From an uncultured Clostridia bacterium (GTDB taxonomy: Bacteria; Bacillota; Clostridia; Oscillospirales; Ruminococcaceae), in assembly GCA_945829235.1 (NCBI GenBank), contig CALZUA010000007.1:1-64000 (forward strand): DNA of 64,000 nt, in the 5' to 3' direction. Below the pieces are notes generated by a model. That model did no database searches. It saw nothing but the letters and a program-made list of their open reading frames with translations, and was not told the DNA's origin. Shown here in pieces: positions 13,872 to 30,172 of this stretch. Both the position numbers and the translations under genes were made by a program. Position 1 is the first letter of the stretch. The number at the start of each line of letters is the position of its first letter.

Positions 13872-16367
13872 GTGAAACGGCTGGTTATCAGCATGGCGGC
13901 GCACGTTGATGCGGGCAAAACCACACTTTCCGAGGCGCTTTTGTATCACGCGGGTGAAATTCGCCGACAGGGGCGCGTAGACAACGGCGATGCATTTCTT
14001 GACACCAACCCCCAAGAGCGTGCGCGGGGAATTACAATTTTTTCCAAGCAAGCGATAATGCGCTTCAACAACGCCGAGTACACGCTCCTCGATACCCCGG
14101 GGCACGTTGATTTTGCCGCGGACGCGGAACGAGCTTTTTCGGTAGCGGATTGCGCTGTGCTGGTAATCAGCGGCACGGACGGTGTTCAAAGCCACACGAA
14201 AACCTTGTGGAAACTGCTTTGCAGAGCGGGTTTGCCGACTTTTGTATTCGTCAACAAGATGGACATTTCGCATAAAACCAAGCCCGAGATTATCCGCGAC
14301 CTGCAGGCGCTTGACAAGAATTTCGCCGACTTTTCCGAGAACATCGGAGAAACTGCCGCCGAGTATGACGAGGACTGTATGAATGCGTTGCTTGAAACGG
14401 GAGAAGTGCCCGAAAACCGCATTGCAAAGGCGATTTCCGAGCGCAAAATCTTTCCCGTGCTGTTCGGCTCGGCACTCAAAAATGACGGTATCTTGCAGAT
14501 TTTGGAAATTCTCGATAAATTTTCCCTGCCGAAAAACCGCTTTGACAGCTTTGCCGCGCAGGTTTTCAAGATAACCGATGAGGGCGGCGCGCGGCTCACT
14601 CACCTTAAAATCAACGGCGGCGAGCTAAAGGTGCGCGAAACGCTCGGTGAGGAAAAAATCACGCAAATCCGCTTGTACAGCGGCGCGAGGTTCACCGCAA
14701 CCGATACCGTTTACGCAGGACAGCTCTGCGCGGTAACCGGACCTACGCAGACGTTTGCGGGGGAGTGCTTCGGCGAACAAAAGCGCTCTGTTAAGCCAAT
14801 TATCGAGCCTGCGCTGAGTTATCGGGTAATTTTGCCCGAAGGCGCGGACGTTGTGAAAACGCTGGCGTTGCTGAAAAAAATCGAGGAAGAGGACCCGCAA
14901 ATCAGGTTTTCGTGGAGCGAAAGGTTGCGCGAAATCCACGTTGGGATAATGGGCGAAATTCAGCTTGAGGTGCTCAAAAACCTGATTGCAGAGCGGTTTT
15001 CGCTGAACGTGGAGTTCGGCGAGGGGCAGATTTCGTACAGGGAAACAATTCTCGAGCCGGTCGAGGGTGCGGCGCATTTCGAGCCGCTTCGGCACTACGC
15101 CGAGGTGCATTTGCTCCTCGAGCCGTTGCCGCGCGGAAGCGGAGTTGTGTTCGCGCGCGACTGCCGAAACCTTGACGAGAACTGGCAACGGCTGATTATG
15201 TCAAATTTGCGCGAGAAGCGGCATCTCGGCGTGCTCACGGGTTCGCCGATAACCGACTTGAAAATCACGCTCAAATCGGGGCGCGCACACCTGAAGCACA
15301 CCGAGGGCGGCGATTTTCGTGAAGCCGCTTGGAGAGCTGTTCGGCAGGGGCTTGCTTCGGCAAAATCCCGCCTACTTGAACCGTTTTACGAGTTTTCGCT
15401 GGAGATACCCGCTGAGTGTGTTGGACGCGCGATGACCGACTTACAGCAAATGGGCGCGGAATTTTCCACGCCAACAGGTGAAGAAATGCGCCAAATTGAC
15501 GGAATTTGTCCCGTGTCCGAGATGCGCGGCTATCAGAAGGAAGTTGTCGCGTACACGCGCGGTCTGGGGCGGATTTCCTGCAATTTCAAGGGGTATTTTC
15601 CGTGCCACAACGAGTCTGAGGTTATCGAAAAAATCGGCTACAATTTCGAGTCGGACGTTGAAAACACCGCCGACAGCGTGTTCTGTTCACACGGCGCGGG
15701 GCATCTTGTCAAGTGGGACGAAGCGCCGCGGAAAATGCACCTCGCGAGTGTTCTCGAGAAGCCGCGAAGCGTGTCGCAGAGCGAAATTCTGTCCTATAAG
15801 CAACGTGCGGCAACCGACAAAGAGCTGATGGAAATTTTCGAGCGAACCTACGGCAAAATCAAGCGTCCCGAGCGCTCGGCAATGCGCCGCAACAAGCCCG
15901 CCGAGCAGAATTACAAGTCGCCGAAGCTGAAAACGGGCGAGGAGTACCTGCTGGTTGACGGGTACAACATCATTTTTTCGTGGGAAAATCTCGCTTCGCT
16001 TGCGCGCGAGAGTCTTGATTTTGCGCGGGCAAAGTTAATCAACATTTTGTGTAATTATCAGGCTTTTCGGCGGTGCAACCTCATTCTCGTTTTTGACGCG
16101 TACAAGGTGAAAAGCGACAGGGAAGTGGAAGAATATGGAAATATCACCGTTGTTTACACCAAGGAAGCCGAAACCGCCGATATGTTTATCGAGAAAACCG
16201 CGCACAAATTAAGTCCCGAAAATCGCGTTCGTGTTGCCACATCGGACGGCACCGAGCAACTCATAATCCTCGGAAGCGGTGCTACGAGAGTATCCGCGGA
16301 GGTTTTTCGGCTGGAGGTTGAAGAGGTTGAACGGGCAATTCGTGATGTTTTGGACTCTTTGCATTGA
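13872..16367 (+). CDS. TetM-like ribosomal-protection GTPase fused to a YacP/Rae1-like NYN nuclease domain
   Basis: An 831-residue fusion. Residues 1 to about 650 are an EF-G/TetM-type translational GTPase: G1 AHVDAGKTTL, G2 region ERARGITI, G3 DTPGHVDF, G4 NKMD, then EF-G domains II-V including the GIMGEIQLEVL and FSLEIPAECVGRAM blocks. Residues about 690-831 form a NYN/PIN-like domain matching YacP/Rae1: LLVDGYNIIFSWENL, LVFDAYK, KEAETADMFIEK and VATSDGTEQLII, with the acidic residues kept. Rae1 of Bacillus cuts mRNA in the ribosomal A site. The fusion implies that the GTPase brings the nuclease to ribosomes (inference). A GTG start follows a strong GGGGGGAG site. Confidence 0.88.
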   Translation: MKRLVISMAAHVDAGKTTLSEALLYHAGEIRRQGRVDNGDAFLDTNPQERARGITIFSKQAIMRFNNAEYTLLDTPGHVDFAADAERAFSVADCAVLVISGTDGVQSHTKTLWKLLCRAGLPTFVFVNKMDISHKTKPEIIRDLQALDKNFADFSENIGETAAEYDEDCMNALLETGEVPENRIAKAISERKIFPVLFGSALKNDGILQILEILDKFSLPKNRFDSFAAQVFKITDEGGARLTHLKINGGELKVRETLGEEKITQIRLYSGARFTATDTVYAGQLCAVTGPTQTFAGECFGEQKRSVKPIIEPALSYRVILPEGADVVKTLALLKKIEEEDPQIRFSWSERLREIHVGIMGEIQLEVLKNLIAERFSLNVEFGEGQISYRETILEPVEGAAHFEPLRHYAEVHLLLEPLPRGSGVVFARDCRNLDENWQRLIMSNLREKRHLGVLTGSPITDLKITLKSGRAHLKHTEGGDFREAAWRAVRQGLASAKSRLLEPFYEFSLEIPAECVGRAMTDLQQMGAEFSTPTGEEMRQIDGICPVSEMRGYQKEVVAYTRGLGRISCNFKGYFPCHNESEVIEKIGYNFESDVENTADSVFCSHGAGHLVKWDEAPRKMHLASVLEKPRSVSQSEILSYKQRAATDKELMEIFERTYGKIKRPERSAMRRNKPAEQNYKSPKLKTGEEYLLVDGYNIIFSWENLASLARESLDFARAKLINILCNYQAFRRCNLILVFDAYKVKSDREVEEYGNITVVYTKEAETADMFIEKTAHKLSPENRVRVATSDGTEQLIILGSGATRVSAEVFRLEVEEVERAIRDVLDSLH

Positions 16368-16381
16368 GGAAATTTTTGGAA

Positions 16382-17035
16382 ATGATTATCGAACCTGTTG
16401 CTCATATTGAGAATGATTTTAAGGAAAAATTTGGTATTCCGCGCCAAAGTGGGCTTTGTGATTTACCGTCAAAAATTGTCTTTGAACCAAAATTTCGCGA
16501 CAAAAACGCAATTCGCGGAATCGAAGATTTTTCGCATTTGTGGTTAATTTGGGGCTTTTCCGAGTTTGACGGGAAATTTTCGCCGACTGTTCGTCCGCCG
16601 CGACTTGGCGGCAACGTCCGAAAAGGCGTTTTTGCCACGCGTTCCCCGAACCGCCCGAACCCGCTCGGATTAAGCGTGGTGCGGCTTTGCGAGATTTGTG
16701 CGGACGGCACGCTTGTGGTTTCGGGCGCGGACCTGATGAACGGCACGCCCATCTTCGACATCAAGCCGTATCTCCCGTATGCCGACAGCGTTCCCGAAGC
16801 ATCAAACGGTTGGTCGTTGAGCGAAAAAACGCCTGTTCTCGAGGTGAATTTTCCCGATGAACTGCTGGAAAAAATACCCGAAAACAAGCGAAATTTCCTT
16901 GTTCAAATTCTCGCGCAGGACCCGCGACCGCAGTACCAGAACGCTCCCGAGCGCATCTACACAATGGCTTTCGCGGAGCGGCAGGTGAGCTTTCGGGTTG
17001 ACGGGAACACGCTTTTTGTTGTTAAAATCGAATAA
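16382..17035 (+). CDS. trmO: TrmO/TsaA family tRNA (N6-threonylcarbamoyladenosine-A37) methyltransferase
   Basis: A 217-residue SAM-dependent enzyme that methylates t6A37 in tRNA. It has the N-terminal beta-barrel pattern IIEPVAHIENDF, KFGIPRQSG, IRGIEDFSHLWLIWGFS, and the signature RPPRLGGN...GVFATRSPNRPNPLGLS. The C-terminal part (YTMAFAERQVSFRV) completes the family. The ATG at 16382 is preferred, with GAGGA about 11 bases upstream at the end of the GTPase-NYN gene; a TTG at 16364 would overlap that stop codon. The last plus-strand gene before a shared terminator. Confidence 0.88.
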   Translation: MIIEPVAHIENDFKEKFGIPRQSGLCDLPSKIVFEPKFRDKNAIRGIEDFSHLWLIWGFSEFDGKFSPTVRPPRLGGNVRKGVFATRSPNRPNPLGLSVVRLCEICADGTLVVSGADLMNGTPIFDIKPYLPYADSVPEASNGWSLSEKTPVLEVNFPDELLEKIPENKRNFLVQILAQDPRPQYQNAPERIYTMAFAERQVSFRVDGNTLFVVKIE

Positions 17036-17063
17036 AAAAGCACGGCTCGAAAACCGTGCTTTT
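17036..17063. terminator. bidirectional intrinsic terminator
   Basis: A perfect 10-bp stem (17036-17045 with 17054-17063) flanked by A and T runs. It lies between the converging trmO and DHH genes and serves both strands. Confidence 0.85.
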
Positions 17064-17067
17064 GTTT

Positions 17068-18000
17068 TTAGGAGTGATATTTATCGTAGTTAACCAGCTC
17101 GTCGATGAGCTTCGGCACCATCTCGTCCTCTGTTTCATCGGTAAACTGGCAGGTGCCGACCGCCATGTGACCGCCGCCGCCGTATTTCAGCATTGTGCTT
17201 CCGACGTTAACGTGCGAGGTTCTGTTGATTATCGAGTAGCCGACTGCGCAGGAGCAACCCTTGCCGCCCTTACCGTCAACTATCCAGCAACTCAAATTCT
17301 GCTCGGGGTAAAGCGAATAAATCAAGAAACGGTTGCCCGTGTAAATCGGGTTCACGCCGCGCAAATCCGTGATGATAACATCGCCCTCGATGCGCGTGTA
17401 CTTATGTACCATTTCCTTGAAAAGCTCGGTCTGCTCGTTGTACAGCTTAATTCTTTCCTTGATATCGGGCATCGCGAGAATTTCTTCCGTTGTCATATAA
17501 GAGCAACATCTAAGCAATTTTTCCATAAGCTGGTAATTGCTTATCGTAAAATTCCTGAATCTTCCAAGACCGGTTCTGGGGTCCATCAAAAAACCGACAA
17601 GAATCCAGCCCTGCGGGTTGAGGATTTCATCGCGGGTGAGATTACCACTGTCAACCTTATCCACGGCTTCCATTATATCGTCAAAGTTCGGGAACCGCTC
17701 TTTGCCGCCGTAATACTCGTAGATAATTCTCGCGCAACTCGGCGTAATGCGGCTTTCACCCTTGTATTTACCTTTATAACGGCAACGTTCTTCTTCACTT
17801 GAATGGTGGTCAAACCAAAGACCGCAACCTTCAACAAACGGCACGTTTGCCAAACAGTCGTTTTCAGTCACGGGGATAAGACCGTCCTGTAAATCCTTAG
17901 GGTGAGCGAATGTCCAGCTGTCAACAACTCCCGCGCTAAGCAAAAGCGCTCCGCAGGCAAGTCCGTCAAAGTCCGAACGGGTAATCAATCTCATTGCCAC
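17068..18000 (-). CDS. DHH/DHHA1 family phosphoesterase
   Basis: A 310-residue protein with DHH superfamily motifs. Motif I is RSDFDGLACG (residues 8-17), the DHH triad is in LWFDHHSS (64-66), motif IV is DKVDSGN, and a DHHA1 end carries KYGGGGHMAVG. Relatives cleave phosphodiesters or phosphoanhydrides in substrates such as cyclic dinucleotides, nanoRNA or polyphosphate using two metal ions. The substrate here cannot be assigned. It is soluble with no membrane part. A GTG start is used with GAGGAG 10 bases upstream; an ATG lies two codons later. It is a single-gene unit with its own promoter. Confidence 0.85.
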   Translation of the reverse strand: MAMRLITRSDFDGLACGALLLSAGVVDSWTFAHPKDLQDGLIPVTENDCLANVPFVEGCGLWFDHHSSEEERCRYKGKYKGESRITPSCARIIYEYYGGKERFPNFDDIMEAVDKVDSGNLTRDEILNPQGWILVGFLMDPRTGLGRFRNFTISNYQLMEKLLRCCSYMTTEEILAMPDIKERIKLYNEQTELFKEMVHKYTRIEGDVIITDLRGVNPIYTGNRFLIYSLYPEQNLSCWIVDGKGGKGCSCAVGYSIINRTSHVNVGSTMLKYGGGGHMAVGTCQFTDETEDEMVPKLIDELVNYDKYHS

Positions 18001-18041
18001 GATTTAATCACTCCTCAATCTCCAGAAATTGTGTTACTTCC

Positions 18042-18070
18042 ATTATATCACTTTTTGTGGTGAAAATCAA
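18042..18070 (-). promoter_or_regulatory. sigma-A promoter of the DHH gene
   Basis: Minus strand TTGATT (18070-18065), 17-bp spacer, TATAAT (18047-18042), about 40 bases ahead of the GTG at 18000. Confidence 0.8.
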
Positions 18071-18092
18071 CACTTTTTTTCAAAAAATGGAA

Positions 18093-20750
18093 TTATTTTT
18101 TTGTAAGTATACTTAAGCGCAGTTTAAAGCGGTCCATTCGGTTCAACTTTTTATCTGCGGCATTGAAAATGCTCTCGAGAAGCCGCGCAAGCTCAGCAAT
18201 TTCGGTTTCATCGGTTTCGCTTGCAAACGCCGCCTTGAGTAAGACATTTTTGTGCGCGGTTATCGGAACGAACAGCTTGTTTTCGCAACGCTCGTAGAAT
18301 TGCTCGGGGAGTTCACCGGCGGCGGGTGTAAGTCCGCAGAGTGCAAGCACCGCAAGCGTTTTCTCGTAAACAGGCTCGGCGCTTTCGCTCTTGTACAGCT
18401 TTTTGAGCGCTTTTCTCGCGTTTTTGTCGAACGATTTCAGCTTAACCGAGGTCAACACAACCGCGCCGATTACCAGCAAAATTCCAACAACCGTGAGAAT
18501 AATCGGTGACGCGTCAACGAGTGTATTTTCCTCGGGCAAGATTGGGTTGTTGGAGGAATTTTCGGTTGTGTTATCGGAACTTTGGGAGTTCTCGGAACTT
18601 ACCGTGCTTGAGTCGATATCGGAGCTGTCGGAGCTTGATTTTTCGCTCTCTTCCGAAGATGCCTCGGAGGACTCTGAGCTTTCCGACGATGACTCCTCCG
18701 ATGAGTTATCGATTATAACCGTGTTGGCAAGCGAACTGCTTGTCGGGTCGAAGGTAACCCAGCCGATTTCATCAAAATACGCCTCGCACCAAGCGTGGAG
18801 GTTTTTCGAGCGCAAAATCGCGTAATTATCGCCGTCTGTTTTTGGGGCAACAAACCCCGTGCAGTAACGCGCGGGAATACCCAGCTCGCGCAACATAAGC
18901 GTCATTGAGCTTGCAAAAAGCGCGCAGTGACCGCTTTTAACCTCGTTCAGGAAGCTGATAATCGGATTTTTCATATTGATTTTCGCGTCAAGCGAATAGG
19001 TGTAGTTGTTTATGAGAAAATCCGTGATGTCAAGCGCCGCCTTGTAGCCGGTTTTCGCGTCAACTTTTCCGTCTTTATATACATTATAAAATAGGTTGTT
19101 GTTTAAAAGATAGCGTTTGATGTCCGCTTTAATGTTCTCGGGCACCGCGAGATAGGTTTTGTAAACGTAATCCTTATAATCCTCGTAAAGCCCGCTTTCG
19201 CCAAGATAAGAGTCGAAAACCTCGTCCATCGGGTATTTTTCGCCGATAGTGTTCAGGTAATCAATCGTTTCAAGAAGGCTTTCGCGATTGCTTCCGGTGT
19301 AGTTTATCGGCGGGACAAGCGCGGCGCATTTTACCGTATTGATTTTTTCGTAATTATGGTTAACGCGCACCGAATAATCGCCGTAAACATCGAACATTTC
19401 GTTTTCGAAGAAACCGAACTCCGATGTATAAGACGGCAGAAAAACAACGTCCGTCGGGCAAAGATAATCGACAATTATCTCACTTTCGTTTATTCTCTTA
19501 AACGAGGAGGAGTCGGAATTTTCAACGTCATCTTTCCAAGCGGACTGCGTTTGCAACATCATTTGCAAAATTCGCATTTCCGCAGGACGATAAACCGCCG
19601 AAAGCCTGCTTTTTTTCCACAAATCGGGTTCGTGCCTTATCGGAGAAGTCCAGGAGTTTCCCGTGAACTCGATTCCGATATCGCCGCGAAGATAAACCTC
19701 GCTTGCGGGACTGCTCACCCGAAGAATTTCCTGATTGCTTTTGCCGGGGGAAATTATGTTGAGCGATGAATTTGCACCCGTTCCGTAGCTCGAAAAATAC
19801 TCGGAAACCGGTCCGTTTTCAAACGGCGAGGTTATGCCGGAGCTTTGACCGAGATTGTTCAGAAAGTTGTAGAACTCGCTGTAATCGAAGCCTTCCTTGA
19901 CGGGCGCAAAGCTGTTTGCGATAAGCGCACAAGCCGTGAAAAGCGCAGCCGCCCAGCAAGCCGAAGCGAGATATTTCGAGTAGAAAATCCCGTTCATTCG
20001 CGCGCGTTTAACAAAGGTTGACTTTGCCGCTTTGTTGCGGAATTCGCGTTCTTCCTTGCGGGTATCCGAGCGAAATGTGCCGAAAAATCCTTTCTTGATT
20101 GCCACGCCCTCGGAATAGGTTTTAGACAGCGAAATCGCGCCGGTGTACAGCGCAAGAGCCGGAATTATCCAGAAATTGAACTCGAAATTTCCCGCAACCG
20201 CAACCGGTGCGCTCAGCAAAATAAACAAGATAAACGATGGGTAAATCACGGGCTTTCGGAACATTGTCGCGGCAGTTATCATCGCGAAAATGCACGCGAA
20301 CGCGCCAACACCCAGCAACACTCCGTCCGTGCAGGGCGGGTAGGTTCCCAAGAGCTGAGCGTCCGTGTGGAACGTGAATTTCTCGGTATAGAACATCACA
20401 CCGTTCATTCGCATAATTATCAGGTCGGTAAAGTAGGATATGCGCTCCCAAAGGCTTTCACGGTTGAAAAATATTATAATTCCGCCGAAAAACACAAAAA
20501 TCGGTATCGCGATTTTCTTTTTCACCAAGCTGAAAACCGTGCTGAAAAAGATGCCGAAAAGCGCGCAAATTCCCGCCGCCGCCCATAAATTCACGGGCAT
20601 TTTGTATTCGACTATCAAGAAAAGCGCGGCGCACACGCAAAGCGCGGTGCAGTAGAGCGCCTTTTTCAGCGTCTGAACAAGCGCAGACGGCTTTTTGCCG
20701 TAATATCTGTCGTAAACAAGTACTATCCCCGATTGCTTTTTTGTTTTCAT
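18093..20750 (-). CDS. polytopic membrane transglutaminase (TgpA-like), with Ser/Glu-rich linker
   Basis: An 885-residue membrane protein. About six N-terminal hydrophobic helices (residues 30-205) and one near 265 precede a large extracellular region. The transglutaminase-like core follows, with Cys609 in SGHCALFAS, His652 in NLHAWCEAYF and Asp668 in VTFDPTSS, so the catalytic triad is complete. A Ser/Glu/Asp-rich linker (about 680-735), one more helix (about 750-770) and a cytosolic tail end it. This resembles TgpA/DUF3488-transglutaminase-DUF4129 proteins. It starts 21 bases after the tubulin-like gene and is the last gene of a three-gene unit. Its substrate is unknown. Confidence 0.85.
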   Translation of the reverse strand: MKTKKQSGIVLVYDRYYGKKPSALVQTLKKALYCTALCVCAALFLIVEYKMPVNLWAAAGICALFGIFFSTVFSLVKKKIAIPIFVFFGGIIIFFNRESLWERISYFTDLIIMRMNGVMFYTEKFTFHTDAQLLGTYPPCTDGVLLGVGAFACIFAMITAATMFRKPVIYPSFILFILLSAPVAVAGNFEFNFWIIPALALYTGAISLSKTYSEGVAIKKGFFGTFRSDTRKEEREFRNKAAKSTFVKRARMNGIFYSKYLASACWAAALFTACALIANSFAPVKEGFDYSEFYNFLNNLGQSSGITSPFENGPVSEYFSSYGTGANSSLNIISPGKSNQEILRVSSPASEVYLRGDIGIEFTGNSWTSPIRHEPDLWKKSRLSAVYRPAEMRILQMMLQTQSAWKDDVENSDSSSFKRINESEIIVDYLCPTDVVFLPSYTSEFGFFENEMFDVYGDYSVRVNHNYEKINTVKCAALVPPINYTGSNRESLLETIDYLNTIGEKYPMDEVFDSYLGESGLYEDYKDYVYKTYLAVPENIKADIKRYLLNNNLFYNVYKDGKVDAKTGYKAALDITDFLINNYTYSLDAKINMKNPIISFLNEVKSGHCALFASSMTLMLRELGIPARYCTGFVAPKTDGDNYAILRSKNLHAWCEAYFDEIGWVTFDPTSSSLANTVIIDNSSEESSSESSESSEASSEESEKSSSDSSDIDSSTVSSENSQSSDNTTENSSNNPILPEENTLVDASPIILTVVGILLVIGAVVLTSVKLKSFDKNARKALKKLYKSESAEPVYEKTLAVLALCGLTPAAGELPEQFYERCENKLFVPITAHKNVLLKAAFASETDETEIAELARLLESIFNAADKKLNRMDRFKLRLSILTKK

Positions 20751-20771
20751 ATTACCCCGTTAGAATTTTGG

Positions 20772-23054
20772 TTAAACGTTCTTGAAGATGTGAATACCGT
20801 GTTTTTTGAGAGAGTCGTTGACGTAGGCGTAACGCATATTTTCCCACTGATTGTAGTCCTTAAATCCGTCAAATTTCACGCCGCCTTTTATCTGAACCAC
20901 AACCGTTGCGTTGAACAACGGCGAAACGTTCCATATATAATTTATCCCCTGCCGCGAGGCTTTGAGCTGCGCGACATCGCCCTGCTTGATGTTTTTCGGG
21001 CAGAGTATCCTCGTGAGCGGCTGTTCGTCAAGCGTTGGCGTTTTCACGTTCACGCTGTCAAAACAGCTTTGGAGCGCGTCCCGAACCGAGCTGTCCGCAC
21101 CGAAATATTCGCAGAAATCGTTGTAACCCATCAGCAAAAAACCGCCGAAGCACCTTGCCGCTAGATTTACAATTTCCGCGGCAAACTGCGCGCCGTCCTC
21201 GCCGTCATCGAGCATTTTCATCTTCTTGAAAGCAAGCGTTCTCGTGGTTTCGGGAATTTCCTCGACAAGCTTGTCCAGCTTCTCGAGCACCTTTGGCGTG
21301 TTCACCTCAAACGCTTCCTTTATACAGCTTTCCTCCTCGCTTTCAAAATGCGCGAGAAACTCCGACGCGTTAAGCGAGAAAATTTTCACCTTTTCCGAGA
21401 GCGTTTTTTCCGAATACTCGCTGAGCCGTTCGTGCGCAGATGTGTAAAAATCCAGCATTGTATCAACGGTTTTCTGCTGTTTAAGATAATTCGCGTACTC
21501 CGAGAGCGATGAAATATACAGCCGAACCGCGTTTCCCGCCATCAGCGAGGGTGTGCTCTTGAGCTTGCGGTAATCGCTCTGCACAAGGCGTTCCTCGCGC
21601 AAAATTTGCTCGTCAATATCCTCTTTCTCGGTTTTTGTGCGTTTAATCAGCGCTTTCAGCTCCGACAGGCATTTGTTAACGATTTCGGTTGCGCAAAACG
21701 GACCTTTTTCAAAGTGATTAAGCGCGTCATCGCAGTCAGCGATAATGCTCTCAATCGCTTCGGGCAACACAATTGCCGCGCCTTCTTTAACAAGCCGCGC
21801 GTATTCCTCAACCTTTTCGTTAACGTAATTTTTGCTTGCTTCCGAGCCCTTTTTCAGCGATTTCATCGAGAAAAGGGGATTGTATTTCTCATCAAACTCA
21901 ATCTTCGGAATTGCTCCCGCGCGTGATGCAAGGAACATCGCATCGGGAGTAATTTTGCTGGTGCAGATGCCGAGTTGCATTTGACCAACGGTGTTTTGCT
22001 TGAGGTAACTGCAAAGGCTTGAGAACAGCTTTACCGACAGATACGAAACGATTTTCCCGAGCGGAATTTCCATTCCCGTGACATCGTAAGCCAGATATCT
22101 GAACGAGTGTGAGCCGCTTTGCCCGAGCATATTGTAGGACACAACCTTGTCCGCATCGTCGTCCTTTTTGTAGATAAACTCGCCCGCCGAGAGTATTTTT
22201 TCCGCGGCAACAGCAAGCGTTTTTTCGTAGGTTTTTTCCGCCGACGCAACATAGCAAGCGTTAAACGGGGGCTTGTCCGAGGTTATCTCGAAAGCGCCCG
22301 TGTACTTCTGCGAAAACTTGGCTTTGCGGCTCTGGAACGCGTCAAGCTCGCCCTTTGTGATAATCGTGTTCGCGTAATAATTCGCGAGGTCGCGCGCGTC
22401 CTTCTCGAAAAGCTGAGCAGTATCGCCGACAAACATCAGCGAGTTGATTTTCACGGGGAAGCCGGTTGTTTTGAACAGCGCCGTGAGAATGTAACCAAAG
22501 TCAACGACAGTTCCCCCGAAAAACGGGTCGCCCATATTGCCGACAACCGTTATTTCAAGCGGATTTTCGCTCTTGGAGAAATGGTTTATCAGCTCGTCAA
22601 GACGGTTGAGCAGGGTGCCTATGTAGTGAAACAGCGCAATTCTCCCGCACTGCCGCTTTTGCAGACCGTATTTCGGCACAGCGGGATTGTAGTTCTTCAA
22701 GCCCATATCAAACCATTCCAGCGCTTGCGGCGACAGAAGGTCGGGTTGGTCGAGGTAACGGTAGATTGCCTCCTCGGGATTTATCGCGATTTTTTCGCTC
22801 TCCGAAAGCACCGAGCCGCAAAACTCCGCGTTTTCAAGATATTCCTCCAAGCCAAACGCGAGATAGCGAATATTATCGGTTTTCGCGTTAAAGCGGTTTT
22901 CGGCGGCGTGCTTTGCTCTCAAAAGGCAATCAATGCCGTTTTTGCCGACGCCGATTATCAGCAGTCTGTTCATTCCGAGCATATTTTTTTCGCCGTCATA
23001 CAGCTTCAAAATCCTGTCGGGCTTGAGCCATTCAATTTGCTTTTGAATATCCAC
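20772..23054 (-). CDS. tubulin/FtsZ-superfamily-like protein (tubulin_2 or FtsZl-type), divergent
   Basis: A 760-residue cytosolic protein with no signal or helix. Its N-terminal half follows the order seen in bacterial tubulin-like (tubulin_2/FtsZl) proteins: LLIIGVGKNGIDCLL (31-45), YGLQKRQCGRIALF (129-142), and VVGNMGDPFFGGTVVD (170-185) where relatives carry a GGTGSG phosphate loop. Further on are FEKDARDLANYYANT and FNACYVASAE. The third motif is degenerate, so GTP binding is uncertain. The rest (about 430-760) is helical, with a possible coiled coil at 560-650. A GTG start follows AGAAGGT. It lies between a secreted lipoprotein and a membrane transglutaminase. Related families have been linked to membrane remodelling; this assignment is by eye. 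Confidence 0.55.
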   Translation of the reverse strand: MDIQKQIEWLKPDRILKLYDGEKNMLGMNRLLIIGVGKNGIDCLLRAKHAAENRFNAKTDNIRYLAFGLEEYLENAEFCGSVLSESEKIAINPEEAIYRYLDQPDLLSPQALEWFDMGLKNYNPAVPKYGLQKRQCGRIALFHYIGTLLNRLDELINHFSKSENPLEITVVGNMGDPFFGGTVVDFGYILTALFKTTGFPVKINSLMFVGDTAQLFEKDARDLANYYANTIITKGELDAFQSRKAKFSQKYTGAFEITSDKPPFNACYVASAEKTYEKTLAVAAEKILSAGEFIYKKDDDADKVVSYNMLGQSGSHSFRYLAYDVTGMEIPLGKIVSYLSVKLFSSLCSYLKQNTVGQMQLGICTSKITPDAMFLASRAGAIPKIEFDEKYNPLFSMKSLKKGSEASKNYVNEKVEEYARLVKEGAAIVLPEAIESIIADCDDALNHFEKGPFCATEIVNKCLSELKALIKRTKTEKEDIDEQILREERLVQSDYRKLKSTPSLMAGNAVRLYISSLSEYANYLKQQKTVDTMLDFYTSAHERLSEYSEKTLSEKVKIFSLNASEFLAHFESEEESCIKEAFEVNTPKVLEKLDKLVEEIPETTRTLAFKKMKMLDDGEDGAQFAAEIVNLAARCFGGFLLMGYNDFCEYFGADSSVRDALQSCFDSVNVKTPTLDEQPLTRILCPKNIKQGDVAQLKASRQGINYIWNVSPLFNATVVVQIKGGVKFDGFKDYNQWENMRYAYVNDSLKKHGIHIFKNV

Positions 23055-23100
23055 GATAATTACCTTCTTTGTTGAATTTTAGTTTAAATAGCAAATTATT

Positions 23101-24381
23101 TCAGTTAAGCGAGTTTATTTCAGCAATTGCCGTTTCAATTGCCGATATGTCAACGGGCGAGTCCTCGTTTTGCGCCAGCGGCGAGCCGAGATAAGCGGCA
23201 ATCACAGTGTTTGTTTCGGAATTGAAACAGTAATTCTCCTCGGGAACCGCCGTCAGTCCGTTTGCACGCATTTTCGCGAGAACGCTGTCCGTTTCTTCGG
23301 CTTCCGCTTGGCGAGCGGTTATTCTTCCGCAGTTTATAAAGCAAGCCGCACCCTTAACGTTTTTCGCGCCTTTTGGTACAAGAAAACCATCGCAACTTGC
23401 CGCGCAATAATAAATATCGCTTTCATCACTTCTCGGGATAGGAACAACACCGTAGGTTTTCCCCGAATCAATTTTCAGAAGCTCCTCGTAGCCCTTGTCG
23501 TCAATCAGCAAAAACGCCGCGCGCCCGTTTATAATCTTGTCGTAGCCGGTGAAATTTTCCGTGTTCATTTTTTCGGACAACTCGTTTTTCAGGAAATCAA
23601 AAACCTCGGTGATTTTTGCGCCGTTTAAGTTGCACACAAGCTGTCCGTTCTCGGACTTTGCAAAAACGGTTTCGCCGGAAGCCGAGATGAAGCCGTCCGT
23701 GATGTAATCGCCGTAAACTCCCACGCCGCCCATTGCCCCACAAAACGTTCTTGCGGCGCTGACAAATTCGGTTCTTGTCCACTTGTTCTCGTAGAACAGC
23801 TTTTCGGGGTCGGTTATCCCGAGCGTTGAAAAGCGCTCCTTGCAGTATACGAGAAAACGCGGCGCGGCGGTGACGGTTTCGGGGTAGAAGAAGTGGTTTC
23901 CGTTGTAGCTGTAATACTCGATGTACGGCGCGTATTCTTCCCATTGCGGCGCGCTTCTGTCGAGATATTGCGTCAAGTCCTCGTAATAATTTTTCGACAT
24001 CAGGTAAGGATAGCTGTTCGGGAGCTTGTCCGTGAGGTCGGGTGAACGGTCGGAGGAGATTTTCTCCGAAAGCGCATCCGCAAGCCGATATTCCGAACAG
24101 TACTCGCGAATCAGCGTTTCCGACTCCGAATAATCCGCGGCAAACGTCTTTTTGTAAAGCGAGAGCGCGTCCGAGCTTTTCAGGTCGCGCCGTCCGAGAT
24201 AGGTCAAAACGGGAGTGTCGGGCTTAATTTCGGGGTAATAGTCATCGAACGGCAGAACGCTTTCCGATGAGTCATCGACAATGTTTGGCGATAAATACGA
24301 GCTTGCCCCGTTTTGATGGGAACCGGCACTGCAACCGCACAAAAGCGCCGCTGTTGCCAGCAACAAAAGCCGCTTTTTCAA
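23101..24381 (-). CDS. extracellular solute-binding-protein-like lipoprotein
   Basis: A 426-residue lipoprotein (signal KKRLLLLATAALLCGC, lipobox Cys near residue 15-17). After a short Ser/Asp-rich tether it resembles ABC sugar-type binding proteins: SPDLTDKLPNSYPYL, YYEDLTQYLDRSAPQWEEY, LVYCKERFSTLGI, NKWTRTEFVSAARTF, INGRAAFLLID and YGVVPIPRSDE. No permease or ATPase is nearby; the two following genes encode the tubulin-like and transglutaminase proteins. A TTG start is used (24381-24379), supported by a strong AAAGGAGGAG site and a consensus promoter. It may be a sensor or ligand-binding part rather than a transporter component. Confidence 0.75.
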   Translation of the reverse strand: MKKRLLLLATAALLCGCSAGSHQNGASSYLSPNIVDDSSESVLPFDDYYPEIKPDTPVLTYLGRRDLKSSDALSLYKKTFAADYSESETLIREYCSEYRLADALSEKISSDRSPDLTDKLPNSYPYLMSKNYYEDLTQYLDRSAPQWEEYAPYIEYYSYNGNHFFYPETVTAAPRFLVYCKERFSTLGITDPEKLFYENKWTRTEFVSAARTFCGAMGGVGVYGDYITDGFISASGETVFAKSENGQLVCNLNGAKITEVFDFLKNELSEKMNTENFTGYDKIINGRAAFLLIDDKGYEELLKIDSGKTYGVVPIPRSDESDIYYCAASCDGFLVPKGAKNVKGAACFINCGRITARQAEAEETDSVLAKMRANGLTAVPEENYCFNSETNTVIAAYLGSPLAQNEDSPVDISAIETAIAEINSLN

Positions 24382-24424
24382 GAAAACTCCTCCTTTCCGA
24401 AAATTTTTACTTATAATTATTTTT

Positions 24425-24453
24425 ATTATACCACAATTATTGCATTAAGTCAA
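24425..24453 (-). promoter_or_regulatory. sigma-A promoter of the lipoprotein/tubulin-like/transglutaminase unit
   Basis: Minus strand TTGACT (24453-24448), 17-bp spacer, TATAAT (24430-24425). Intergenic gaps of 46 and 21 bases downstream, with no terminator seen, suggest that one transcript covers all three genes. Confidence 0.85.
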
Positions 24454-24491
24454 TAAAGTAAATACAAAATCTTCGATTTTTGCGATAACGG

Positions 24492-24520
24492 TTGACAAAA
24501 TATAGGAAATATGCTAAAAT
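24492..24520 (+). promoter_or_regulatory. sigma-A promoter of 24537
   Basis: TTGACA (24492-24497), 17-bp spacer, TAAAAT (24515-24520). It is divergent from the lipoprotein promoter, with the two -35 boxes about 40 bases apart. Confidence 0.85.
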
Positions 24521-24536
24521 AACAAAGGGTGATTTT

Positions 24537-24974
24537 GTGGAATATGTAATAGGCTTCGGGCTGGTTGCCGTGCTGATGCTTTGTCTGGGGTTCGGGTTTG
24601 GCGATGTGGCGATGCTGGTGATGTGGATTTTGGCAGGCGCGGTTGTGCTCACGGCGCTGTTTTTCGCCGCGGCGCTGTTCCTTCTCGTCACCTCAAAGCC
24701 TGTAAAAGCCGAGTTTCTCCGCCTTGACGACACAAAACGCTTTCCCGCCGCAGTTTACCGTATCGGTGAACAAGAGTTCCGAAATATCTTCCCTAGTGAA
24801 ATGATGATGAAAAAGAAGCTCTACGTTGAGGGGAAGAGGAAACGCGTGCTGAAAAGCAGGATTTTCGGATTTGTTATCGACGGAAACGCCCTCGCAACAA
24901 TAATTATCGGTGCGTGCGTGTTTATTCCGTCGGCTTGTGGAACAATAATTTGGATGACTAACTTTTTTCGTTAA
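24537..24974 (+). CDS. small membrane protein of unknown function
   Basis: A 145-residue protein. Two N-terminal hydrophobic helices (about 3-25 and 28-53) precede a soluble domain of about 65 residues rich in Lys/Arg. One more hydrophobic segment (about 118-142) ends it. The GTG at 24537 is chosen because AAAGGGTGA lies just upstream and the longer frame start at 24492 is the promoter -35 box itself. It ends 9 bases before the HD-domain gene, so the two are co-transcribed. No family recognised. Confidence 0.7.
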   Translation: MEYVIGFGLVAVLMLCLGFGFGDVAMLVMWILAGAVVLTALFFAAALFLLVTSKPVKAEFLRLDDTKRFPAAVYRIGEQEFRNIFPSEMMMKKKLYVEGKRKRVLKSRIFGFVIDGNALATIIIGACVFIPSACGTIIWMTNFFR

Positions 24975-24983
24975 GGAGATTTT

Positions 24984-25676
24984 ATGAGCAATATAACCTA
25001 CGATTACATCAAGATTAACAGCGATGTTCAGACGTATATTAAGTTCGCGGACGCGGCGCTTTCGGCTATCGGCTACACCGAGCACTCAAAAGCGCACGTT
25101 GAGCGCGCGGCAACAAACGCGTTTATGATTTTGAACACGCTCGGCTATGACGCGAGAACCTGTGAGCTGGCGCAGATTGCCGCGTATCTTCACGATATCG
25201 GCAATGTCGTGAACCGCGTCGGTCACGCGCAGACGGGCGCTGTTATGGCGTTTCGACTGCTTGACAAGCTCGGAATGCCCGCCGAGGAGATTTCTCGCGT
25301 GGTTTCGGCTATCGGCAACCACGACGAGGGTAGTGCTTATCCGGTTACGCCGATTGCCGCGGCGCTGATTATAGCGGACAAATCCGATGTCCGCAGAACG
25401 CGTGTTCGCGGAAAGGACGGGCAACCGTTTGTCCCGAGCAGTGAAAACCTCGCCGCCGATATTCACGACCGCGTGAACTACGCTGTTGAAAGCTCCGAGC
25501 TGATGTTCGCGGAGGACAACAAGGAGCTTATCCTGAGCCTCAAAATCGACCTCAAAATCAGCTCCGTTATGGAGTATTTCGAGATTTTCCTCTCCAGAAT
25601 GAGCGTCTGCCGTACCGCGGCTCACTCTCTCGGGGTAACCTTCGGCGTGGTTATAAACAACTCAAGAATACTCTGA
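24984..25676 (+). CDS. HD-domain metal-dependent phosphohydrolase
   Basis: A 230-residue cytosolic protein with the HD pattern: His38, His70-Asp71 (AAYLHDIGN), His113 (IGNHDEG) and Asp132 (IIADKSD). The family hydrolyses phosphate esters of nucleotides or cyclic dinucleotides. The C-terminal 90 residues (from about KIDLKISSVMEYFEIFL) look like a small extra domain. The ATG follows AAGGAG, 7-8 bases upstream. It shares a promoter with the membrane protein at 24537. No substrate can be named; the HD residues make the enzyme class secure. Confidence 0.85.
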   Translation: MSNITYDYIKINSDVQTYIKFADAALSAIGYTEHSKAHVERAATNAFMILNTLGYDARTCELAQIAAYLHDIGNVVNRVGHAQTGAVMAFRLLDKLGMPAEEISRVVSAIGNHDEGSAYPVTPIAAALIIADKSDVRRTRVRGKDGQPFVPSSENLAADIHDRVNYAVESSELMFAEDNKELILSLKIDLKISSVMEYFEIFLSRMSVCRTAAHSLGVTFGVVINNSRIL

Positions 25677-25709
25677 TTTCACCGTTTTTGAAAAAATTTT
25701 AAAAACCCC

Positions 25710-25738
25710 TTGCAATTTCGGGAGATTTATAGTAAAAT
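25710..25738 (+). promoter_or_regulatory. sigma-A promoter of the purine cluster
   Basis: TTGCAA (25710-25715), 17-bp spacer, TAAAAT (25733-25738). It lies 210 bases before purE and opens a long leader with a terminator hairpin. Confidence 0.8.
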
Positions 25739-25803
25739 AATAATGAGGGTTTATTTGTTGCTTTTAGTGTAAAAATACCAAATTTTGACAGGAGAACAGA
25801 GCG

Positions 25804-25896
25804 ATGTTTTGGAAAAAATGTTTTTCGTGTGAATTATTGAGTTATTTTTACGGAATAGTTGCACAAAAAACCGGATTTTATCCTGTAGCTGTATAG
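25804..25896 (+). CDS. putative 30-codon leader peptide of the pur cluster
   Basis: A small ORF with ATG at 25804, an AGGAGA site 8 bases upstream and a TAG at 25894-25896. The peptide (MFWKKCFSCELLSYFYG...PVAV) is rich in aromatic residues and Cys but has no run of one amino acid. Its stop codon lies inside the 5' arm of the terminator at 25886-25909. A ribosome finishing it would therefore cover the arm and could prevent termination. Real ribosome site and placement favour translation; it may still be chance. Confidence 0.45.
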   Translation: MFWKKCFSCELLSYFYGIVAQKTGFYPVAV

Positions 25897-25919
25897 CATT
25901 ATACAGCTATTTTTATTTG
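25886..25919 (+). terminator. leader terminator (attenuator candidate) of the pur cluster
   Basis: A perfect 10-bp stem (25886-25895 with 25900-25909) with a 4-nt loop (GCAT) and the tail TTTTTATTTG. It lies after the promoter and before purE with no other gene between, so transcripts must read through it. I could not recognise a purine, PRPP or ppGpp riboswitch consensus in 25739-25885. Confidence 0.8.
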
Positions 25920-25948
25920 AAACTAATTTTTTGAAAGGAAGTTTGAAT

Positions 25949-26455
25949 ATGGCAGCAAAAAAAGTTGCGGTAATTATGGGTAGCGACAGCGATTTGCCCG
26001 TTGTTAAGAAGGCTCTCGATAAAATCAAGAGCTTCGGTTTGGAGTACGAGTGCCGGATTATGTCCGCGCACAGAACCCCGAGAGCGGTTTGCGAGTTCGC
26101 GGAAAAGGCGAGAGGCAACGGCTTTGGCGTGATAATCTGCGCGGCGGGTATGGCGGCGCACCTCGCGGGGATTGTTGCCGCGCACACAACGCTTCCCGTT
26201 ATCGGAATTCCTTGCTCGGGCAAGAATTTTGACGGACTTGACGCGCTTTTGTCCACCGTTCAGATGCCCTCGGGAATCCCCGTGGCAACGGTTGCCGTGG
26301 ACGGCGCGGAAAACGCGGCTATTCTTGCCGTTGAGATACTCGCTCTCAGCAACGAGGCTCTCGAGGCTCAACTCAGCGTTGAAAAGCGCAAGATGATTGA
26401 GAAAATCAACGAAAAGGACAGAAAGCTCCAAGAACAGCTTCAGTCCGAGGACTAA
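25949..26455 (+). CDS. purE: N5-carboxyaminoimidazole ribonucleotide mutase
   Basis: A 168-residue class I PurE that converts N5-CAIR to CAIR in purine synthesis. Signatures are [12 protein letters not shown] (substrate loop), [11 protein letters not shown] (catalytic His), [19 protein letters not shown], and [20 protein letters not shown]. The ATG at 25949 with AAAGGAAG upstream is preferred over a codon at 25931. A PurK partner is not in this window, so whether the substrate is N5-CAIR or AIR/CO2 is undecided. The Asp/Asn-type signature fits class I. Confidence 0.96.
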
Positions 26456-26513
26456 ACTTATGACTTTACTCGGCTTTGCCGTGAACGTTAATCAAAGAAA
26501 AGGAGAATTTATT

Positions 26514-27230
26514 ATGAACTGCACAAAAAAGGAACAGCTTTACGAGGGAAAGGCAAAAAAGGTTTTCGCAACCGATAATCCCGACTACGTTATTGTTGAC
26601 TACAAGGACGACGCAACCGCTTTCAACGGCGAAAAGAAAGGCACAATCGTCGGCAAGGGTGTCATCAACAACAAGATGACCAACTATATGTTCAGCCTGC
26701 TTGAAAAAGAGGGCGTTCCCACGCACCTTGTCGAGGAGCTTTCCGACAGAGAAACGCTGGTTAAGAAAGTTGAAATCGTTCCGCTTGAGGTTATCGTGAG
26801 AAACGTTGCCGCAGGTAGCTTCTCCAAGAAGCTCGGCATCGCAGAGGGTACTCCTCTCAAGTGCCCGACGCTTGAATTCAGCTACAAGAACGACGAGCTC
26901 GGCGACCCGTTCATCAACGATTACTACGCGCTTGGTCTCGGTCTTGCAACCAAAGAGGAAATCGATGAAATTGCAAAGTATGCGTTCAAGGTGAACGAGT
27001 TTATGCTCGGCTTCTTCAAGAAGCTCAACATCGATTTGATTGACTTCAAGATTGAGTTTGGTCGCTTCCACGGCAAAATCCTCCTCGCGGACGAGATTTC
27101 TCCCGATACCTGCCGTTTCTGGGACTCCACAACTCACGAGAAGCTCGACAAGGACCGTTTCCGTCGCGATATGGGCGGCGTTGAGGACGCGTACAACGAG
27201 ATTATGAAGAGAATTATGTCTACAAAGTAA
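26514..27230 (+). CDS. purC: SAICAR synthetase
   Basis: A 238-residue ligase that joins CAIR with aspartate using ATP. Family blocks: [93 protein letters not shown]. The ATG at 26514 has AAAAGGAGAA upstream; the frame runs back into purE but that part is not family-like. It follows purE by 58 bases and is part of the same transcript. Confidence 0.97.
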
Positions 27231-27271: not shown

Positions 27272-28699
27272 ATGGGCGGATTTTTTGGAGCGGCTTTGAA
27301 AAGAAGCTGCGTTGAGGACGTCTTTTTCGGAACGGACTATCACTCGCACTTGGGAACAAGACGCGGCGGTATGACCGTGTATTCACCCGAAAAGGGCTTT
27401 CAGAGGGGAATTCACAGCATCGAAAATTCCCCGTTCAGAACAAAATTTGAACAGGATATCGAGGGTATGTCGGGAAATATCGGCATCGGCTGCATAAGCG
27501 ATACCGACCCGCAGCCCATTCTCCTACGGTCAAAGCTCGGCAGCATTGCCGTCTGTAACATCGGTATCATCAACAACGCGGACGAGCTTTGCGATGAGTT
27601 TTTCGACAGCAGGCTGGCAAGCTTTGAAACTATGAGTAGCAGCAAGGTGAACTCCTCGGCGCTTATCGGCGCGCTGATTGCTCAGAAGGACAGCTTCGCC
27701 GAGGGTATTCGCTACGCGCAGGAGCGAATTGACGGCACAATGTCGTTGCTTATCCTCACGGAAGACTGCATTATCGCGGCGCGCGACAAGTTCGGACGTT
27801 TGCCTATTATAATCGGAAAGAGCGACGACGGCTACTGCGTTTCGTTCGAGAGCTTCGCGTTCCAGAAGCTCGGCTACAAGACCTATCGCGAGCTTCAGCC
27901 GGCTGAAATCGTGAAAATTACCGCAGACGGTGTTGAGGTTATCGGCGAGGGCAATCCCGATGCGCTGCGTATCTGCACGTTCTTGTGGACTTATTACGGC
28001 TATCCGAACTCGGTGTACGAGGGCGTGAACGTTGAGGTTATGCGCGCGAAAAACGGCGAGATTATGGCTGAATACGATATCGAAAACGGAACGCTACCCG
28101 ATGTTGACTATGTGTGCGGCGTGCCGGATTCGGGTATTCCTCACGCAATCGGTTACGCAAACCGCAGCGGTATCCCGTTCGCGAGACCTTTTATAAAGTA
28201 CACTCCCACTTGGCCGCGCAGTTTTATGCCGCAAAGTCAGGCGATGAGAAACAAGGTCGCGAAGATGAAGCTGATTCCCGTACACGAGCTTATCGAGGGG
28301 AAGAAGCTCCTTTTCGTTGACGACAGCATTGTCAGAGGAACGCAGATGCGCGAAACCGTTGAGTTCCTCTACGAAAACGGCGCAAAAGAGGTTCATATGC
28401 GCTCGGCTTGCCCGCCGATAATGTACGGCTGCAAGTACCTCAATTTCTCGCGCAGCACCTCCGAGCTTGACCTTATCGCGCGCAGAATTATTCACGAATA
28501 CGAGGGCGAAGAGGGCGTAAAATACATACGGGAATACGCCGACTCCAAAACCGAACGCGGCAAGCGTCTGAGAGATGAAATCTGCCGCCGCTTGAAGCTC
28601 ACTTCGCTTGAATTCCAGTTCCTCGAGGGCACGGAAAAGGCAGTCGGACTTCCTGAATGCAAGCTCTGCACCTACTGCTGGAACGGTAAACAGGATTAA
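27272..28699 (+). CDS. PurF paralog without the glutaminase nucleophile
   Basis: A 475-residue homolog of amidophosphoribosyltransferase lying directly before the true purF. The phosphoribosyltransferase half is intact: VCGVPDSGIPHAIGYANRSG and the PRPP loop KKLLFVDDSIVRGTQ. The glutaminase half is altered. The expected N-terminal Cys (ECGVFGI in purF) aligns with Gly in MGGFFGAA, and LQHRGQES is replaced by LGTRRGGM. Glutamine hydrolysis through the usual Cys therefore seems impossible; it could use ammonia, partner with purF, or have another role. C-terminal Cys residues (CKLCTYCW) match those in PurF. Spacing from purC is 41 bases. Confidence 0.85.
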   Translation: MGGFFGAALKRSCVEDVFFGTDYHSHLGTRRGGMTVYSPEKGFQRGIHSIENSPFRTKFEQDIEGMSGNIGIGCISDTDPQPILLRSKLGSIAVCNIGIINNADELCDEFFDSRLASFETMSSSKVNSSALIGALIAQKDSFAEGIRYAQERIDGTMSLLILTEDCIIAARDKFGRLPIIIGKSDDGYCVSFESFAFQKLGYKTYRELQPAEIVKITADGVEVIGEGNPDALRICTFLWTYYGYPNSVYEGVNVEVMRAKNGEIMAEYDIENGTLPDVDYVCGVPDSGIPHAIGYANRSGIPFARPFIKYTPTWPRSFMPQSQAMRNKVAKMKLIPVHELIEGKKLLFVDDSIVRGTQMRETVEFLYENGAKEVHMRSACPPIMYGCKYLNFSRSTSELDLIARRIIHEYEGEEGVKYIREYADSKTERGKRLRDEICRRLKLTSLEFQFLEGTEKAVGLPECKLCTYCWNGKQD

Positions 28700-28747
28700 C
28701 AGATAGATATATTTAAATGTGTGCGGGATAAGAAAGGATATGATTTT

Positions 28748-30172
28748 TTGTCCGGAAATCTTCATGAGGAGTGCGGCGTTTTCGGGATTTACTCAAACAA
28801 GCCCGCGAACGTTGCGTCCTCGGTATATTTTGGGCTGTACGCTCTTCAGCACCGCGGTCAGGAGAGCTGCGGTATCGTTGTAAACGAGCGCGGCGTGTTT
28901 AAAACTCGCAAGGGCGTTGGTTTGGTGAACGAGGTGTTCAACGAGAAAAATCTCGGCGAATTTGAGGACGGAAAAATCGCAATCGGTCACGTCCGCTACT
29001 CGACAACAGGCGGCGTGAACACCGAAAACTGCCAGCCGCTCACGGTTCGGCACGTCAAGGGCTCGCTTGCCATCGCTCACAACGGAAACCTCATCAACGC
29101 GCTTGATTTACGCAGGGAATTTGAGCTTCACGGCGCGATTTTCCACACAACAAGCGATACCGAGGTTATTTCCTACGCGATTACAAGAGAACGTCTGGAG
29201 TGCGGTTCAATTCAGCAGGCGGTTGAGCGCGCGATGCACCGCATTAAGGGCGCGTACTCGCTTGTTATAATGTCGCCGAAAAAGCTGATTGCCGCGCGCG
29301 ACCCGAACGGTTTTCGACCGCTTGTGCTGGGTGAACTGCCCGACGGCGAGGGCTGGGTTGTCGCAAGCGAAACCTGCGCGTTTGACTGCATCGGCGCGAA
29401 ATTTGTCCGCGACATCGACCCGGGAGAAATCATCGTTATCGATGAAAACGGCATCGACAGCATAAAAACCCACTGCGGCGGAAAAAGCTCGCTTTGCGTG
29501 TTTGAGTTCGTGTATTTTGCGCGTCCCGACTCGGTTATCGAAGGCGCTTCGGTTCACAAGGCAAGACTTCGCGCGGGACATTTTCTCGCGCAGCAGCACC
29601 CGGTTGACGCGGACGTGGTTATCGGCTGTCCCGACAGCGGACTTGATGCGGCGCTCGGCTATTCGCAGGAGTCGGGTATTCCGTATGGCGTTGGCTTCAT
29701 CAAAAACCGATACATCGGCAGAACCTTTATTCAGCCGACTCAGGGACAGCGCGAAAATTCCGTTAAAATCAAGCTGAACGTTCTCAGCGAAACGGTCAAG
29801 GATAAACGAGTTGTTCTTGTTGACGACAGCATTGTTCGCGGAACAACCTCGGCAAAGGTTGTAAAACTCCTGAGAAACGCGGGTGCTAAGGAAATTCATA
29901 TGCGGATTTCCTCGCCGCCGTTTATCAGCGAGTGCTATTTCGGCACCGATATCGACAACAAGAAAAATCTTATCGCAAATCATCACACGGTTGAGGAAAT
30001 CGCAAAAATTATCGGCGCGGACACGCTCGGTTTCTTGAGCCCCGAGAGCGTTGTCGAGATTGCGGAAAACGCGAAATGCGGTTTTTGCAAGGGCTGTTTC
30101 ACGGGAAAATATCCTATTGACGTTCCCGATGAAATTCCTAAGGACAAGTTTGAAACCAAGTTTGAAGAGTAA
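28748..30172 (+). CDS. purF: amidophosphoribosyltransferase
   Basis: Catalyses the first committed purine step, glutamine plus PRPP to phosphoribosylamine. The propeptide precedes the nucleophile Cys (EECGVFGIY), followed by YALQHRGQESCGI, GHVRYSTTG, AHNGNL and the PRPP loop RVVLVDDSIVRGT. C-terminal Cys residues (CGFCKGC) fit the Fe-S type. A TTG at 28748 has AGAAAGGA 9 bases upstream and gives an 8-residue propeptide, so it is preferred. A GTG at 28721 lacks a ribosome site and would add 9 residues. Total length is 474 residues. Confidence 0.95.
   Translation: MSGNLHEECGVFGIYSNKPANVASSVYFGLYALQHRGQESCGIVVNERGVFKTRKGVGLVNEVFNEKNLGEFEDGKIAIGHVRYSTTGGVNTENCQPLTVRHVKGSLAIAHNGNLINALDLRREFELHGAIFHTTSDTEVISYAITRERLECGSIQQAVERAMHRIKGAYSLVIMSPKKLIAARDPNGFRPLVLGELPDGEGWVVASETCAFDCIGAKFVRDIDPGEIIVIDENGIDSIKTHCGGKSSLCVFEFVYFARPDSVIEGASVHKARLRAGHFLAQQHPVDADVVIGCPDSGLDAALGYSQESGIPYGVGFIKNRYIGRTFIQPTQGQRENSVKIKLNVLSETVKDKRVVLVDDSIVRGTTSAKVVKLLRNAGAKEIHMRISSPPFISECYFGTDIDNKKNLIANHHTVEEIAKIIGADTLGFLSPESVVEIAENAKCGFCKGCFTGKYPIDVPDEIPKDKFETKFEE

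Follow-up and report, generated by a model that had tools for sequence, protein, structure and literature searches.

A divergent Tubulin_2 protein and a membrane transglutaminase form a conserved two-gene unit in a genus of Ruminococcaceae

The window, the whole stretch of 64,000 nucleotides analysed here from an uncultured Clostridia bacterium, carries three consecutive genes on the reverse strand, where all features of the locus given below also lie. The first encodes a lipoprotein with a substrate-binding-protein fold (SBP; 23101-24381, TTG start, 426 amino acids), the second a tubulin-fold protein which is a divergent derivative of the Tubulin_2/FtsZl1 family (TUB; 20772-23054, GTG start, 760 amino acids) and the third a polytopic, TgpA-like membrane transglutaminase (TG; 18093-20750, ATG start, 885 amino acids). 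The coordinates of the open reading frames confirmed the three genes, their starts and the gaps of 46 bases (SBP-TUB) and 21 bases (TUB-TG) given in the initial annotation. The promoter placed there at 24425-24453 was recovered as a sigma-70-like site (TTGACT-17-TATAAT, with TG before the -10) showing 11 of 12 matches, and it was among the two best of 20 promoter-like sites in a scan of 16000-27000 where shuffles averaged 9.6. As annotated, no terminator-like site was listed in either gap, in a scan running near the chance rate (24 found, 19.0 expected), and no ABC permease model matched any of the eight window proteins scanned with Pfam between 13872 and 25676. Around the locus, a forward-strand gene at 13872-16367 encodes an EF-G-like GTPase to which a YacP/NYN domain is fused C-terminally (PF00009, EFG domains, PF05991) and adjoins the locus in many loci of the genus. 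Two tandem PurF-like amidophosphoribosyltransferase genes were seen by eye on the forward strand at 27272-30172.

HMM searches of the three proteins upheld their assignment to the substrate-binding fold, Tubulin_2 and Transglut_core. The initial annotation had also read the three genes as one system, and this part did not hold up. The lipoprotein carries a lipobox (LLCGC) and has the fold of family-1 solute-binding proteins. Compared with the solute-binding proteins of ABC systems (UgpB, MalE, CbpB), it scores below the Pfam cut-off (SBP_bac_1, 1.2e-4, 22.7 bits, cut-off 26) and its locus has no permease among the eight scanned proteins. Of 39 loci examined, five ended before the upstream gene, and in 14 of the remaining 34 the lipoprotein was the nearest upstream frame of at least 100 amino acids, ten times on the strand of TUB and four times on the opposite one. 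Two cases fall outside this count, one with the lipoprotein about 1 kb from TUB and one gene between (L085), the other with the lipoprotein adjoining TUB on a separate fragment (G163). Genes upstream of TUB turn over among the genus loci, and elsewhere the slot is taken by different genes, among them a nitrilase-like one in five loci (by eye). Twelve of the 43 genus genomes, each of them with TUB, gave no homologue of the lipoprotein at 1e-10; some of the 31 genomes with a match have weak ones only, which may be other solute-binding proteins. The lipoprotein is thus an accessory neighbour in some species and no core part. As a layout, TUB and TG are common to the genus loci and the lipoprotein is not.

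The window TUB matched Pfam Tubulin_2 (PF13809) at 1.8e-18 with 67.3 bits (cut-off 27), and all 37 TUB proteins matched this model at 1e-3. The structure prediction of TUB alone gave a tubulin/FtsZ fold across both domains, in line with the tubulin-like nature proposed for the middle protein. In the model secondary structure, residues 405-560 (21375-21842) form long helices where the coiled coil of FtsZl1 has been described, and residues 680-750 (20805-21017) are predicted as strand-helix-strand-strand-helix, which we take to be the element order of the tubulin C-terminal domain. VIA alignments of the TUB model extend to model residues 746-760; since large models entered the search undivided, scores of single domains may be too low. 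A profile built from TUB scored 121 and 107 bits on two ordinary members (L207 and L122) over about 640-670 positions. No NCBIfam model matched the window TUB at 1, and a sequence search of solved structures gave nothing at 1, or one chance match at 0.54. Weak matches to porphobilinogen synthase in three of the 37 members (best 1.3e-4), and to FabV, DUF2532 and ALAD in one member each, were read as chance. The same holds for the weak PADLOC matches to defence systems, LeoBC (4.7e-4, TUB 455-640) and PD-T4-6 (1.3e-3, TG 689-807).

Loops of TUB were compared with those of ordinary Tubulin_2 proteins from the same order and class. At the position of loop T1, TUB has GVGKNG (residues 35-40, 22935-22952) where aligned ordinary members have G[LI]GG[TI]G, and the 35 TUB rows readable at this site have G-[IVL]-G-x-[ND]-G. 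Loop T4 is GGTGSG or GGTGAG in 24 of 24 ordinary proteins and in none of 12 TUB representatives, and the GTP-binding loop GGTG[ST]G of Tubulin_2/FtsZl1 is absent from TUB. In its place stands GNMGDPFFGG (residues 172-181, 22512-22541), the first five residues of which are GN[LMI]GD in all 36 readable rows among 37 TUB sequences (one gapped). Such strict conservation of the new T4 loop argues for constraint and not decay. In a tree of the first 400-460 residues with 12 TUB rows, TUB formed a clade with 100/100 support, with 3.16 changes per column along its stem; L207 and L122 were the closest ordinary proteins, and their position beside it was weakly supported (57/87). Judged by sequence, TUB is a derivative of Tubulin_2/FtsZl1 that has lost the ordinary GTP-phosphate loop and gained a strictly conserved new one.

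TG matched Transglut_core at 1e-23, and its catalytic residues C609, H652 and D668 (18747-18926) are the same in all 19 TGs aligned, which bears out the annotated polytopic transglutaminase. The TgpA_N domain scored 24.6 bits against a Pfam cut-off of 30, and the TG core was matched at 4.7e-11 by the solved protein-glutamine gamma-glutamyltransferase 6g49, presumably TgpA itself. Residues 9-21, IVLVYDRYYGKKP (20688-20726), are predicted to be cytosolic and are conserved in the genus, with a mean column identity of 75% compared to 50% in the membrane region and 48% in the tail; a patch of the ectodomain near residues 350-364 stands above this segment with 85%. The N-termini of the seven MoxR-linked TGs shown differ from residues 9-21. 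The C-terminal tail, about 117 residues long, is a further cytosolic part.

TUB was found in 41 of the 43 genus genomes, and in each of the 41 TG lies directly downstream in the same orientation (38 loci, the window, and L162 and L164, assigned by coordinates to G164 and G157). The gap between the two genes is at most 100 bases in 37 of 39 loci measured, 188 and 332 bases in the other two, and likewise at most 100 bases in L162 and L164. G154, one of the two genomes that lack TUB, also has no TG match at 1e-20; in the other, G153, TG starts at base 60 of its contig, so that TUB may be cut off. The alignment of TUB sequences omits L135, whose stretch overran the stop codon, as well as L154, L162 and L164. 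TUB and TG are thus a conserved two-gene unit, and their near-universal adjacency in the genus suggests a new internal partner for TG.

A scan of named records with two C-terminal peptide patterns, which could miss distant relatives, gave 40 loci of at least 38% identity, apparently mostly overlapping the fetched genus loci. All came from metagenome-assembled Clostridia or Oscillospiraceae/Ruminococcaceae, several bearing rabbit or deer gut names. A set of 148 family genomes yielded two strong TUB matches, each from a member of the genus, and three weak matches in frames above 1100 amino acids, while 391 class genomes gave the window's own TUB and one weak ordinary member; no protein of the TUB type was seen outside the genus in these two sets. 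Tubulin_2 matches of any kind occurred in 27 of 295 order genomes, including the window's own and one more of the genus, and one genus genome (G094) has both an ordinary Tubulin_2 gene (L119) and a divergent TUB (L072). Partial Tubulin_2 matches of 427-454 amino acids occurred in another genus of the family, g16; two of these loci, inspected by eye, lie beside cell-wall and ftsW-like genes and look like ordinary FtsZ.

Downstream of TG lies a further conserved neighbour of 310 amino acids (17068-18000) with its own promoter-like site at 18070-18042. Its product had no Pfam match at 0.1, and by motif we take it to be DHH-like. In each of the 37 loci that reach far enough (34, the window, L162 and L164) the gene comes after TG in the same orientation, and it is 86-97% identical across the genus loci, compared to 32-83% for the neighbouring TG. 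It has no evident role in a TUB-TG partnership and is as constant a neighbour as TUB, which was counted against the proposal made below. In 20 further stretches around this gene from other family genomes, several of them limited by contig ends, no TG, MoxR or DUF58 match was found.

To place TG among its relatives, 26 TG loci outside the genus were analysed, drawn from 56 family genomes of other genera with a TG match and chosen mostly as best-scoring, not at random. DUF58 lies upstream on the same strand in 25 of the 26 (about 0.9 kb away in L273) and MoxR in 23 of them as well; the exceptions are L209 and L208, where the contig starts, and L270, where no MoxR was found. In the genus, neither MoxR nor DUF58 matched at 1e-3 in the window, in 38 further loci or in the 40 loci from named records, the last two sets being largely the same. 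In a tree of 14 of the 19 TG rows aligned and 32 other loci, the 14 genus TGs formed one clade (100/100) joined to the MoxR-DUF58-TG locus of G099 (95/93, a join spanning long branches), and both fall inside one 100/100 clade with genus g16. In three of eight g16 genomes (L198, L260, L261) TG is followed by the same DHH-like gene and a second MoxR; L198 has MoxR-DUF58 in front of TG, and L260 and L261 show the TG end only. The second MoxR comes directly after TG in the other five, and G099 gave no DHH-like match at 1e-30.

The window's genome, the one genome searched for a stand-alone MoxR-DUF58 pair, has Transglut_core matches at nine places and two Pfam DUF58 matches, one in L204, which is a complete MoxR-DUF58-TG operon of a different type, and one in a pair lacking TG (L287:10339-12469, contig C12 of G000). 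Our own DUF58 profile added a DUF58-like gene behind another TG (L205). The stand-alone pair stands amid chemotaxis- and flagella-like genes (by eye), and no Transglut_core match occurs on its contig nearer than about 45 kb. Its MoxR groups with G099 and two g16 loci (95/96). Its DUF58, flagged as a long branch, groups with G099 and three g16 loci (98/95), with two more g16 loci in a wider fork (93/90). The simplest history would be a split of the operon which set MoxR-DUF58 apart and left TG behind TUB; we infer this order of events, for which the pair comes from a single genome.

The reading we put forward, with moderate confidence, is that the locus belongs to a split MoxR-DUF58-TG system in which the tubulin-derived TUB serves as cytosolic scaffold or regulator of TG. 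The TG gene of an ancestral MoxR-DUF58-TG envelope system would have been separated from MoxR-DUF58 in the genus, and MoxR-DUF58 may persist as the stand-alone pair found elsewhere in one genome, acting on TG in trans. The FtsZl1-derived TUB would have become the cytosolic partner of TG, binding its N-terminal VLVYDRYYxKKP segment, its tail of about 117 residues, or both. So bound, TUB could place or gate the extracytoplasmic transglutaminase. The linkage, the predicted fold, the loss of the loop and the operon context of the relatives are established; from these we infer the physical binding of TUB to TG, the gating and the cooperation in trans. A presumably cytosolic TUB beside a TG with a tail and a conserved N-terminal segment favours a scaffold or regulator, for which binding is presumed, and TUB is probably that and not an ordinary GTPase filament. 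More tentative is the full form of this proposal, in which a tubulin-superfamily protein devoid of ordinary GTP binding would serve a transmembrane transglutaminase as its assembly platform in the cytosol; crosslinking or remodelling of the envelope would then be controlled from inside by a cytoskeletal fold, within a split MoxR-DUF58-TG system.

Among the alternatives, TUB may still bind nucleotide and form cytomotive filaments that move or cluster TG along the membrane, as other filaments of the superfamily do. The tubulin fold over both domains, the GxGxxG spacing retained by T1 and residues 298-302, mostly DDDA[DE] and presumably resembling the T7 loop of FtsZ, are in accord with this. Against it, GGTG[SA]G occurs in none of the 36 readable TUB rows and model confidence is low around residues 290-310, and we consider such filaments unlikely. 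Somewhat less probable again is that TUB functionally replaced MoxR-DUF58 as regulator of TG. TUB does occupy the position that these genes hold in relatives and no MoxR or DUF58 match was found in the scanned genus loci, but the matching pair on another contig of the window's genome makes full replacement less favoured. The reading of the three genes as an outside sensor or cargo binder, a cytosolic filament and an envelope enzyme could draw on the close packing of the window genes behind one promoter-like site, the substrate-binding fold and the adjoining lipoprotein in 14 of 34 loci; it is largely refuted in the genus by the TUB-bearing genomes that lack the lipoprotein and by the loci where it is reversed or replaced, and is now very improbable. 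Least probable are mere co-inherited neighbours with no functional link, a view in keeping with the confinement to one genus, the equally constant DHH-like gene and a distance-matrix test over 14 loci in which no clear extra TUB-TG signal emerged (partial r 0.16 beyond the species signal, reached in 372 of 2000 permutations, and higher for the control neighbour TrmO against TUB at 0.35, 101 of 2000), but at odds with adjacency in 41 of 41 despite reshuffled genes upstream of TUB and with a genome, G154, that lacks both genes.

MoxR-DUF58-TG operons are common in the sampled family and represent a widespread envelope enzyme system in which the action of the cytosolic parts on the transglutaminase outside is poorly understood. 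A genus with many members from animal guts, in which a tubulin-like protein is kept beside TG, offers a new handle on that enzyme.

The FtsZl1 family (Pfam Tubulin_2, PF13809) and its coiled coil were described by Makarova and Koonin in 2010 (PMC2875224), in the main text of which no word beginning "transglut" appears. Like members of this family, TUB has a tubulin-type N-terminal domain, a long helical middle and a C-terminal domain. It differs in length, with 760 amino acids compared to 985-1297 in the 24 ordinary proteins, and in standing in an operon with a transglutaminase and not with vWA and other proteins; no vWA model of Pfam was matched among the eight proteins scanned at and beside the window locus. 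In five ordinary FtsZl1 operons of the order (L102, L103, L104, L116, L119), a secreted-looking protein, which in four of the five shows DDSGSM or DDSTSM within the sequence displayed, precedes an FtsZl1 of 1141-1240 amino acids, which is followed by a protein of about 660-740 amino acids and a very long membrane-like protein (all by eye). No paper joining a Tubulin_2 protein with a transglutaminase was seen in the literature searched, and as far as this search reached, the family is known while the TUB branch, its loop loss and its operon with TG are undescribed. For the transglutaminase side, we take PA2875 and PA2874 of Pseudomonas to be MoxR and DUF58 proteins. MoxR-DUF58-transglutaminase operons are represented by PA2875-2874-tgpA of Pseudomonas, where the transglutaminase TgpA is reported to be essential and the text uses neither "MoxR" nor "DUF58" (PMC3507681), and by the PFNA cluster of bifidobacteria, with MoxR genes often followed by DUF58 and transglutaminase genes in other bacteria also (PMC6803598). 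The polytopic window TG belongs to this kind of transglutaminase, and its relatives in the family sit in such an operon; the window locus differs in lacking MoxR and DUF58 and in having a tubulin-like protein in front of TG.
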